Source: a bacterium (GTDB lineage: Bacteria; JAHJDO01). From it: DNA of 47,906 nt. This document shows, one piece after another, positions 23,974-47,906 of this stretch (positions are counted from its first letter, which is position 1; every line of letters starts with the position of its first letter). Where the stretch lies: NCBI GenBank assembly GCA_030652805.1, contig JAUSPT010000043.1, forward strand, positions 1 through 47,906. Reading direction: 5' to 3'. A model generated the notes under the pieces. That model saw nothing but the letters and a program-made list of their open reading frames with translations, was not told where the DNA came from and did not search any database. Both the position numbers and the translations under genes were made by a program.

Positions 23974-23981
23974 AATAAATC

Positions 23982-24010
23982 TTGTATATACAAAAGTATT
24001 GCGTTATAAT
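23982..24010 (+). promoter_or_regulatory. Promoter and palindromic operator of the antitoxin gene
   Basis: TTGTAT (23982-23987) and a perfect TATAAT (24005-24010) are 17 nt apart. The -35 box is inside a perfect 12-bp palindrome, TTGTATATACAA (23982-23993), a likely binding site for the ribbon-helix-helix antitoxin encoded just downstream. It also points toward the two downstream cassette genes. Confidence 0.7.
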
Positions 24011-24019
24011 TGATTCGGA

Positions 24020-24067
24020 ATGAGAGAAATTAAATGGAGTCCGTTAAAGAATGAAGAAAAATATTGA
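24020..24067 (+). pseudogene. Toxin remnant (BrnT-like N terminus, 15 codons)
   Basis: ATG 24020 begins the peptide MREIKWSPLKNEEKY and then stops. W-x-x-x-K-N-E is how BrnT-like toxins paired with this type of CopG antitoxin begin. The rest of a toxin (about 75 codons) is missing, and the antitoxin start lies inside this fragment, so a deletion seems to have joined the toxin start to the antitoxin gene. Confidence 0.5.
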
Positions 24068-24302
24068 GTTAACAAGACAGGAAAAAGAAATAGAAGATGC
24101 TTTAATGGCTGGAGAATTTGTTAATGTTGAGAGTAAGGAATTAGAAGAAATATCTCAAGCAATTGCAAGACGGAAAAAGGATGCGGTATTGAACATTCGT
24201 GTTAATAGTCAGGATATAATAAGTATAAAACAAAAAGCAAAAAAACTTGGAATAAAATATCAGACTTTTATTTCTGAAGTTTTGCACAAAGTAGCACTTT
24301 GA
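24051..24302 (+). CDS. CopG-like antitoxin (ribbon-helix-helix), solitary
   Basis: An 83-residue protein. The N-terminal part (LTRQEKEIEDALMAGEFV) and the C-terminal RHH domain (AVLNIRVNSQDIISIKQKAKKLGIKYQTFISEVLHKV, about residues 45-81) match the CopG-type antitoxins whose partner is a small BrnT-like RNase. Here the expected toxin upstream is reduced to 15 codons. It probably still binds the palindrome over its own promoter. It is the last gene before the first integron-type cassette. Confidence 0.8.
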   Translation: MKKNIELTRQEKEIEDALMAGEFVNVESKELEEISQAIARRKKDAVLNIRVNSQDIISIKQKAKKLGIKYQTFISEVLHKVAL

Positions 24303-24358
24303 AAAAGCTGACTTTTATGTACAGTAATATTCAAAATAAAGAGTATTTTAAGATAGTT

Positions 24359-24365
24359 GTTAGGG
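24359..24365 (+). mobile_element. Left boundary of cassette 1 (core site GTTAGGG)
   Basis: Integron cassettes begin with the G/TTRRRY core. GTTAGGG here is the exact reverse complement of the R'' site CCCTAAC of the attC at 24740, as expected when both halves came from one circular cassette. Cassette 1 is therefore about 24360-24792. Confidence 0.7.
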
Positions 24366-24374
24366 GTTGATATA

Positions 24375-24731
24375 GTGGCAGAACAAAAAGCAATCGACAA
24401 ATACAGAGAAGAGTTTAAGAATTCTTCAGATGATGACTTAATAAATGCCATGCACTCATGGGTTCCAAGTTGCGCCCAACATATAGCTGCCGTACAAGAG
24501 CTGGAATCAAGAGGCAGCAGTAGAACTATTGAACAGTTAAGCACAGAAAAAAGCACAAACTTATTCACTAAAATCATTTTTGTGCTTACTGTCATAATAC
24601 TTGTTCTAACATTTCTTCAATTTATTCGCGGGAGAAATCAACTCCATTCTTCTGATACTGTTCCTGTTTATACGCCAGGCAGAGTAAGCAATACCAATAC
24701 AACAAATAATAATAGTAATGTTACAAAATAG
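24375..24731 (+). CDS. Cassette gene 1: small protein with one C-terminal membrane segment
   Basis: 118 residues from GTG 24375, with AGGGG about 8 nt upstream; the alternative TTG at 24357 lies before the cassette boundary and is rejected. The soluble N-terminal part (about 1-60) has a conserved-looking DDDLINAMHSWVPSCAQHIAAVQELESRG stretch, here split: DDDLINAMHSW and QHIAAVQELESRG. A single hydrophobic helix (about 63-84) is followed by a Thr/Asn-rich tail. I do not recognise a function. The start is 16 nt from the cassette edge and the stop is 8 nt from the attC, the compact one-gene layout of integron cassettes. Confidence 0.75.
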   Translation: MAEQKAIDKYREEFKNSSDDDLINAMHSWVPSCAQHIAAVQELESRGSSRTIEQLSTEKSTNLFTKIIFVLTVIILVLTFLQFIRGRNQLHSSDTVPVYTPGRVSNTNTTNNNSNVTK

Positions 24732-24739
24732 GTTTTTAC

Positions 24740-24798
24740 CCCTAACAAATCGCTACAGCGAACGCGGTAACCCGCGTCGCTAAACTTGGGTGTTAGAC
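24740..24798 (+). mobile_element. attC recombination site of cassette 1
   Basis: 59 nt. R'' is CCCTAAC (24740-24746) and R' is GTTAGAC (24792-24798, matching GTTRRRY). The arms CTAACA/TGTTAG pair, and inside them AGCG-A-ACGCGG pairs with CCGCGT-CGCT, leaving one unpaired A. An imperfect hairpin with an extrahelical base is the hallmark that integron integrases use to recognise the strand. Confidence 0.82.
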
Positions 24799-24811
24799 TT
24801 GGAGATAAGAC

Positions 24812-25528
24812 ATGATTGATGCACTTCCATGGACTGTGGTCATACCATACTGCTTCTTCTCGATGTTCATTTTCTACCAGCAACTCCATACGAAGCGCTT
24901 CCGGGGCGCAAGCCAAGTCTTCCTCTCCTTCTTGATCCTCACTGGGTTCATTGGCATGATCACAGGCCTCGTTTTCCTCGTGTACTACGGATTCAAGGTG
25001 GTCTGGTGGGCGCCACTTGCACTCTTCGGACTTGGTCTGGTCTTTCAATTTATCAGCAACATGATCGAAGGACTGATCGGTGCGTTCGCCCTCAGCATGC
25101 TAGGCTTCATTTGTTGGCCGGTATGTGCATTTCTGATGTTTACTTCCGTGCCAGATGTCAACACCCGATACCACGAGAAGGAAACGATTGCCGACTTCGT
25201 CGCAACCATAGAGTCAGCCAACCTTGCTTCACGCGTTGTCAACCGAGGCTCTGCATTCTCTGTTATGAGCGAGTCAGACGTAGATGAATTGATGCGGCAC
25301 TATCGTGTTGCTCTTGCCCACGCTGAGGAAGTCGATATCGACTTCCTCAACCAGAAGTACGACGGATGGGGAGACCATTTTGAGAATGAATTTCTTGCAG
25401 GTCTCCGCCTTGTTGTTGAAGGCAACGGCAAGGCGGATGCAACCATCTCTCTTGCGGGACAGAAGTTGATAGATTCGTGGGGAGACTGGTTCAACCAGAA
25501 TATGAATGAAATTCGAAAACTGAAATAG
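24812..25528 (+). CDS. Cassette gene 2: four-segment membrane protein with soluble C-terminal domain
   Basis: 238 residues; ATG 24812 lies 19 nt after the cassette junction, with GGAG upstream. The N-terminal half has four hydrophobic segments (about residues 8-22, 34-58, 66-85, 90-112). The C-terminal half (about 120-238) is soluble, acidic and helical with many Trp/Asp residues. No family is recognised. It is visibly richer in G+C and uses different codons from the neighbouring core genes, which fits foreign origin. The stop codon overlaps the start of the second attC site. Confidence 0.78.
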   Translation: MIDALPWTVVIPYCFFSMFIFYQQLHTKRFRGASQVFLSFLILTGFIGMITGLVFLVYYGFKVVWWAPLALFGLGLVFQFISNMIEGLIGAFALSMLGFICWPVCAFLMFTSVPDVNTRYHEKETIADFVATIESANLASRVVNRGSAFSVMSESDVDELMRHYRVALAHAEEVDIDFLNQKYDGWGDHFENEFLAGLRLVVEGNGKADATISLAGQKLIDSWGDWFNQNMNEIRKLK

Positions 25529-25609
25529 CCCAACAAGATACATCTACACGTACTTTGAAAAGCCGCGTTTCGCATGTCTTTCCAAAGACGGTTATGCACG
25601 ACGTTATAC
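25528..25609 (+). mobile_element. attC recombination site of cassette 2
   Basis: 82 nt. R'' is GCCCAAC (25528-25534, a perfect RYYYAAC) and R' is GTTATAC (25603-25609, one mismatch to GTTRRRY). The inner arms GT-A-CTTTG.AAAG and CTTTC.CAAAG-AC pair with one extrahelical A and one mismatch. Longer than attC 1 and of a different sequence, so the two cassettes come from different sources. Confidence 0.72.
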
Positions 25610-25647
25610 AAGAAAAATTAATAAGAAATTAAAGAATAATCAACATT

Positions 25648-25726
25648 GTAGGGGCGATTCTATGTAATCGCCCGATTAATAATAAAAATCATACAATAAA
25701 GGGCGAAAACACGGTTTCGCCCCTAC
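25648..25726. mobile_element. 79-bp MITE/REP-like element with terminal inverted repeats
   Basis: The ends are perfect 10-nt inverted repeats, GTAGGGGCGA (25648-25657) and TCGCCCCTAC (25717-25726). Each end also forms its own hairpin with an 8-bp stem: GGGCGATT/AATCGCCC (25652-25673) and GGGCGAAA/TTTCGCCC (25701-25722). It encodes nothing. It lies between the last attC and the promoter of the next operon. Confidence 0.75.
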
Positions 25727-25729
25727 GGC

Positions 25730-25758
25730 TTGTAAGATAAATAAACCTCTGGTATAAT
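25730..25758 (+). promoter_or_regulatory. Promoter of the nucleotidyltransferase-TPM-lemA operon
   Basis: TTGTAA (25730-25735) and TATAAT (25753-25758) with 17-nt spacing, followed by GGGAGG before the ATG at 25794. It begins 4 nt after the MITE-like element. Confidence 0.65.
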
Positions 25759-46130: not shown

Positions 46131-47431
<1,301 letters not shown>

Positions 47432-47432
<1 letters not shown>

Positions 47433-47743
47433 TGCATAATAAAAAACAGAATGCTTCAAAAAACAACCTAAAGAAGATATTACTGATTGTAATAGTTATC
47501 CTGTTTGTATGCCTGGCTATATATGCTTTTACCCCTTGTATAATAGAGCAAAGAAAACTGAATAAACAGATTGCAAATCTTGAAAATGAGATTGAAAGAG
47601 TCCGAGAATCCAATAAGAAACTTGCTAAAGAGATATTCGCTTTAAAGAACGACCCGTTGTACATAGAAAAACTCGCCCGTAAGGAATTAGGATTGATAAG
47701 GTCTGGTGAGGTAATATACAAGCTTAAGCCAGACAAAGAATAA
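47432..47743 (+). CDS. ftsB: FtsB/DivIC-type septum formation initiator
   Basis: A 103-residue single-pass protein: short cytoplasmic basic N terminus, one transmembrane segment (about 15-35), then a coiled coil (about 40-75: RKLNKQIANLENEIERVRES) and the closing motif DPLYIEKLARKELGLIRSGE typical of FtsB/DivIC. It scaffolds the divisome with FtsL and FtsQ. The eno-ftsB order is common in bacteria. Confidence 0.93.
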
Positions 47744-47906
47744 TTCCCATTCTGCGTTACGACTAAGGGAACGGTCAACACATCATTACCCCCCTTGCCA
47801 GAAAAAGACTGATCTAATCTGATCACGACATCAAGGTCAATAGGTGGAATCATAAGCAAGCGCTTGTCCAGATCCGGCACCTTCTCTCTAGCCAACTGCC
47901 ATGGCG
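47744..47906. other. Right window edge, possible partial minus-strand ORF
   Basis: The minus strand is open from the window edge (TTG at 47895, REKVPDLDKRLLMIPPIDLD, then VVIRLDQSFSGKGGNDVL) and could be a partial gene, but in frame it runs on antisense to ftsB and eno to 47362, which real genes rarely do. No family is recognised, and no terminator was seen after ftsB. Confidence 0.25.

Follow-up and report, generated by a model that had tools for sequence, protein, structure and literature searches.

An integron-type two-cassette array in an uncultured cold-seep bacterium, with attI-like receptor sites across its genus

The window, which is the whole stretch of 47,906 nucleotides that was analysed, carries two integron-type gene cassettes at 24360-25603. 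In the main reading, given a probability of about 80%, these form a two-cassette array inserted at a G/TT boundary (the slash marks the point of insertion), and the array is one of many integrase-less cassette sites, often placed behind attI-like receptors that bear promoters. A textbook integron has a single integrase and a single attI, and its array is fed by a single promoter. The two window cassettes alone are a modest finding. They belong to a genus-wide set, and that set is a new variation on the integron theme. The window is contig C43 of genome G000, from an uncultured bacterium of a cold-seep lineage. This genome has 2.0 Mb in 102 contigs and is 95.6% complete. With four congeners (G001 to G004) there were five genomes of the genus in all. 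These are draft MAGs and G001 is only 62% complete.

The original prediction placed two sites with the R''/R' layout of attC in the window and this was read directly from the sequence. Cassette 1 (24360-24792, plus strand) runs from the TT of its left edge to the G of R', its limits being set by complementarity between edge and R''. Its site, attC 1 (24740-24798, plus strand), was assigned by covariance model and fold, with R'' CCCTAAC and R' GTTAGAC (24792-24798). The expected extrahelical A is present in the stem, AGCGA-[A]-CGCGG TAAC CCGCG-TCGCT. The left edge (GTTAGGGG) reads G/TTAGGGG at 24359/24360. The start of attC 1, CCCCTAAC (24739-24746), is the exact reverse complement of this edge over 8 of 8 nt, as a circular intermediate predicts. 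Cassette 2 (24793-25603, plus strand) ends in attC-like site 2 (25528-25609, plus strand), assigned by layout. This has R'' GCCCAAC (25528-25534), CGT[A]CTTTG with CAAAGACG, and R' GTTATAC (25603-25609). The cassette 2 edge GTTAGAC pairs with its own R'' at five of seven positions. The different base composition claimed for cassette 2 was also found, with a G+C content of ~50% inside it compared to ~34% around it and a second drop past its end.

Each cassette encodes one ORF on the plus strand with start and stop codons near the cassette edges, as had been described. ORF1 (24375-24731) has a GTG start 15 nt from the edge and a stop 8 nt before R''. Its product of 118 aa has one membrane helix by eye. 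ORF2 (24812-25528) starts 19 nt past the cassette junction and its stop codon overlaps R'' of site 2. The N-terminal half of the 238 aa product is hydrophobic and the C-terminal half soluble, again by eye. Neither product matched a known family in Pfam, NCBIfam or PADLOC, in agreement with their description as unrecognised. ORF1 had no relative among plasmids or viral contigs, and ORF2 had none among plasmids, viral contigs or genome contigs. Just upstream of the cassettes is a CopG-antitoxin-like gene (24051-24302, plus strand; PF12441, E 2.4e-5, below the cut-off). A reading that begins VPDLDKRLLMIPPID is common to window positions 47362-47895 and L144 3250-3447, at the ends of two contigs, and this repeat likely breaks the assembly.

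The attC covariance model was built from 12 reference attC cores with the variable terminal structure removed. The references came from class 1 integrons on plasmids and from environmental integrons beside profile-confirmed IntI genes. MAFFT alignment of full-length attC sites misaligned the variable terminal structure, so the model made from it was discarded. The core model gives scores of about 15-62 bits to known or presumed integron attC sites, which include members of the training set, and its E-values are rough. Site 1 scored 22.4 bits in the window (E about 0.001, filters off) and the runner-up 10.2 bits. In the whole 2-Mb genome the E-value of site 1 is 0.04, so the model alone is suggestive and not decisive. 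Site 1 was the sole plus strand match in a simple R''/R'/hairpin scan of the 47.9-kb window, and single-stranded DNA folding gave z of about -3.5 on both strands. Of the two sites proposed as attC, site 2 had no match to the model in the window scan. It folds weakly, with z of -0.8 and -1.4 on the two strands. Its layout, the stop codon overlap, the G+C step and sister loci that resume at the same G/TT suggest that it is an attC. Two ordinary small genes with palindromic terminators, giving attC-like hairpins by chance, would account for the missing model match at site 2. This is highly improbable given the exact left edge, the model match at site 1, the G+C step and the sister loci, where other genes meet the same boundary. 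The integron anatomy of cassettes 1 and 2 was confirmed and the observation is real.

The window locus was compared in the relatives. The conserved left flank on the receptor side (24286-24359, plus strand) is 81% identical to G004:C46:1944-2018. The identity ends at G/TT and falls to 45% over the next 40 nt. This flank belongs to neither of the receptor families, A and B, that are described below. The conserved right flank (25604-25730, plus strand) starts at the boundary TT and was aligned with G003:C105 and with two places in G004:C46. The right flanks are alike from G/TT onward and the preceding 60 nt are only 20-33% identical. In G002 nth is followed directly by a nucleotidyltransferase gene and about 23,975-25,730 of the window is absent. 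G003 keeps the nth-CopG arrangement, with a partial CopG homologue at the same place. There the cassettes are replaced by other sequence with an attC-like half-site (seen by eye, with no attC-model match) before the same right flank. G004 has, on another contig, two right-flank copies and one left-flank copy with other genes between them. In the proposed comparison for an empty site, G002 lacks about 24.0-25.73 kb and the precisely empty junction ATAGTTG/TTATAC was not found in the relatives. The contrary case, a fixed operon of the two genes in relatives, was not seen, as G002, G003 and G004 differ at the locus.

Two other features were noted in these flanks. The right flank runs into a palindromic intergenic repeat, GTAGGGGCGA...TCGCCCCTAC (window 25648-25730), of which G003 and G004 have similar GTAGGGACAGG versions. 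An imperfect hairpin, AG-CA-CTTT-GAA-AAAG-CT, is shared by G004:C46 (1156-1189 and 1944-2006) and the window (24299-24330). It follows HicB-, protease- and CopG-like genes and has seemingly compensating changes (CAG/CTG, TAG/CTA). It may be an AT-rich attC of toxin-antitoxin cassettes that has degenerated.

Matches to the attC model were present in all five genomes of the genus and were mostly isolated. The top scores were 42 bits in G002, 38 in G003 and 37 in G004. Matches in G000 were at C48, C32 (two), C49, C43 and C80 with scores from 30 to 21 bits. A 13.9-bit match inside ychF (G000:C45) was taken as noise. No match at E≤0.05 was found in 86 of 115 sampled genomes. Strong attC sites, in part clustered and scoring up to 48 bits, occur in G005, G031, G059, G062 and others, which have no IntI match. 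Integrase-less attC sites are not unique to this genus, because several IntI-less genomes have attC matches, and integrase-less cassettes are common in the sampled lineages.

Cassette content differs between sister species at several host junctions. G000 and G002 have different attC sites with a common R' side at the stop codon of mutS, where G003 and G004 have no attC. Upstream of lipB G000 and G002 have different attC-type ends at one host junction. At the hcp site they are alike up to G/TT with different genes thereafter. These comparisons suggest exchange at G/TT in syntenic places. The cassette cargo includes hcp hydroxylamine reductase, a PHP-domain protein, an alpha/beta-hydrolase-like protein and a PtuA/PtuB (Septu-like) pair. 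Several cassette proteins have no family, and both window proteins are of that kind. The PtuA/PtuB defence pair lies within one cassette of G004:C14 (L155 4140-5967), the left edge of which, GTTATAC, exactly matches its own attC R'', GTATAAC.

No integron integrase was found near the window cassettes. The best loci in G000 with the TIGR02249 profile scored 80 and 73 bits compared to a cut-off of 265, and both were rejected as IntI as they are XerC/XerD-like. The claim that the cassettes lack a nearby integrase held, and none was found across the genome. No intI was found in G001 to G004 at E≤1e-70, the only level reported in that search, at which fragments could be missed. IntI above the TIGR02249 cut-off was present in 53 of 385 sampled genomes and in none of the five of this genus. 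An intI with the integron-specific profile, the mark of a complete integron, was not found in any of the five by these searches. Cassette arrays break assemblies and a plasmid with intI could be unbinned in these draft MAGs.

The flanks that precede the G000 cassettes at C49 and C32 recur elsewhere. They represent two promoter-bearing elements, families A and B, with about 37 copies in the five genomes, most ending at G/TT. In family A a promoter-like TTGCTG or TTGACT is followed by a spacer of 17-18 nt and TATRTT, and the element ends ATATTAATTG/TT. Sequence models found 27 copies in the five genomes and no copy in 380 other genomes at E≤1e-4, making it genus-specific among 385. Family B has a predicted promoter, TTGACA-N17-TATCTT, and then a stretch of about 50 nt that ends TTCAATGATGTAYG/TT. 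Ten copies were found in the genus at E<1e-4 by sequence model. A syntenic family B locus in G002 is alike up to G/TT and then has a different gene. Among inspected copies the distance from the receptor boundary to the start of the first ORF is usually 5-45 nt.

The boundary sequence predicted an exact 7-nt R'' downstream in 14 of 28 testable copies, compared to a mean of 3.3 and a maximum of 10 when the edges were shuffled 5000 times. The other half had no exact match. A same-strand receptor copy lay ≤2.5 kb upstream of 10 of 18 attC matches (0.1 expected, P about 1e-18), the two sets being not fully independent because some copies were found around attC sites. Neither training set contained G003:C143, C120 or C29. 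The right flanks differ between most arrays, and three share G/TTCAGCCAAATATGATC. Not every copy is therefore explained by the spread of a complete attI and subsequent insertion.

Families A and B might instead be host promoter repeats, either a regulon or a MITE, near which cassettes merely persist. Among the divergent host genes that copies of family A adjoin are metH, rpe and a GDSL gene, and part of family A occurs without a cassette in G003:C75. In G003 the divergent promoter half also occurs as native promoter of the GDSL gene, which blurs the outer limits of family A. Host promoter repeats are nevertheless quite improbable as an explanation, since the homology stops at G/TT in most copies and family B adjoins intI in the genome CSMAG_454. 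Family A was also considered as the long attC of a gene-less promoter cassette on account of its partial dyad symmetry. This was rejected as no R'' core is conserved at the outer end.

A pattern for the end of family B was scanned over genome contigs and gave seven matches. Four were on contigs of the congeners CSMAG_1337 and CSMAG_2459, and Candidatus Tenebribacter, Thermococcus and CSMAG_454 had one each. The Thermococcus match falls within a coding sequence and was dismissed as a chance occurrence. The CSMAG genomes are from a cold-seep MAG catalogue (PMC10491686). On contig JAUVJM010000033.1 of CSMAG_454 the family B match sits 169 bp upstream of a divergent IntI of 410 aa, which scores 409 bits with TIGR02249 compared to the cut-off of 265. 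Family B is probably an attI/Pc because it adjoins this genuine integron integrase. Identity to the CSMAG_454 attI is 84% over 130 nt for the best genus copy and 59-74% for the others. This sequence identity makes family B a homologue of the CSMAG_454 attI/Pc. The CSMAG_454 homologue has an adjacent intI, a Pc and G/TT. The genus copies have a predicted promoter and G/TT and no adjacent intI. Family A, with no intI in the genus and no copy outside it among the 385 genomes, has no intI neighbour and is classed as attI-like only.

Further attI-like ends were seen during this comparison. The Candidatus Tenebribacter contig JAVCCD010000351.1 has three tandem attI-like copies within 1.7 kb and one attC match. 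At least one copy is directly followed by a gene, and no intI was noticed among the ORFs inspected. At L244, L146 and L157 the attI end reads ATG ATR TAY G/TT, with a start codon readable into the cassette (MIYV...), and resembles a leader ORF.

It is unlikely that the cassettes are ordinary single insertions at secondary attG sites, with an integrase in trans and no special receptor. The R' sides at the window, mutS and lipB do resemble plain host sequence, and insertion at attG is well established (Loot et al. 2024, doi 10.1038/s41564-023-01548-y, as presented in the citing papers PMC11023631 and PMC12444791). Repeated promoter elements ending at the boundary would however be unexpected for scattered attG sites, and family B appears to be an attI.

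The main reading, with cassettes inserted at G/TT often behind attI-like receptors, suggests the following mechanism. In established integron biology, IntI inserts cassettes between G and TT, acting on the folded bottom strand of attC. Circular cassettes would recombine their folded attC with the G/TT of a receptor copy. They would land right behind its predicted outward promoter and so be expressed, provided that the receptors act as promoters. The receptors would have been dispersed over the chromosomes. The integrase would have come from outside the binned chromosome, from a plasmid or a neighbour, or would have been lost since.

Two fuller accounts of the set were weighed. A possible one, tentative and with the odds somewhat against it, is a distributed integron in which dozens of promoter-carrying attI receptors, with no integrase, would receive cassettes through a plasmid or seep-community integrase. 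Its cassette fill would include the Septu-like defence pair and hcp. The other is that the sites are relics of an ancestral chromosomal integron that lost its integrase long ago, with cassettes and attI copies scattered by rearrangement and now immobile. The absence of intI from the searches of the five genomes fits this, as do several degenerate copies (the boundary of G001:C193 is changed to TTT and the attC in G001:C163 is weak). Relics are rather unlikely, as different cassettes at syntenic sites of sister species and left edges that still exactly match R'' point to fairly recent turnover.

If multiple detached attI/Pc copies exist, each with cassettes of its own, acquired cassettes would repeatedly land beside a promoter and cassette capture would be uncoupled from owning an integrase. 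Integrase sharing between community members would then become directly testable. Scattered sets of this kind would be missed when intI or attC clusters are searched for in the usual way.

The set was compared to known systems. IntegronFinder 2 reports a CALIN at two or more attC sites (PMC9024848). In the window no integrase was found and one of two sites matched the model. The CALIN label fits only formally because site 2 was unconfirmed by the covariance model. As originally applied, the label was right about integrase-less cassettes and too narrow, as it misses the genus-wide attI-like receptor set. Both the CALIN and the single attC class of IntegronFinder (PMC9024848) share with this set attC-bearing cassettes with no integrase nearby, whereas here the cassettes are spread over many loci, mostly one or two at each, and attI-like promoter repeats often precede them. 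The attG insertions, as outlined in the citing papers, are alike in having cassettes outside an integron platform and an integrase in trans. Many receptors here are instead repeated attI-like elements with promoters and not scattered unrelated sites. The Xanthomonas CALINs (PMC12444791) are likewise integrase-less cassette clusters at several chromosomal places. In that genus the ancestral intI locus is known, and the available part of the report describes no repeated attI. As for the intI-attI integron of CSMAG_454, its attI/Pc shares up to 84% identity with family B over 130 nt, but the copies in this genus are detached from intI and occur several times per genome.
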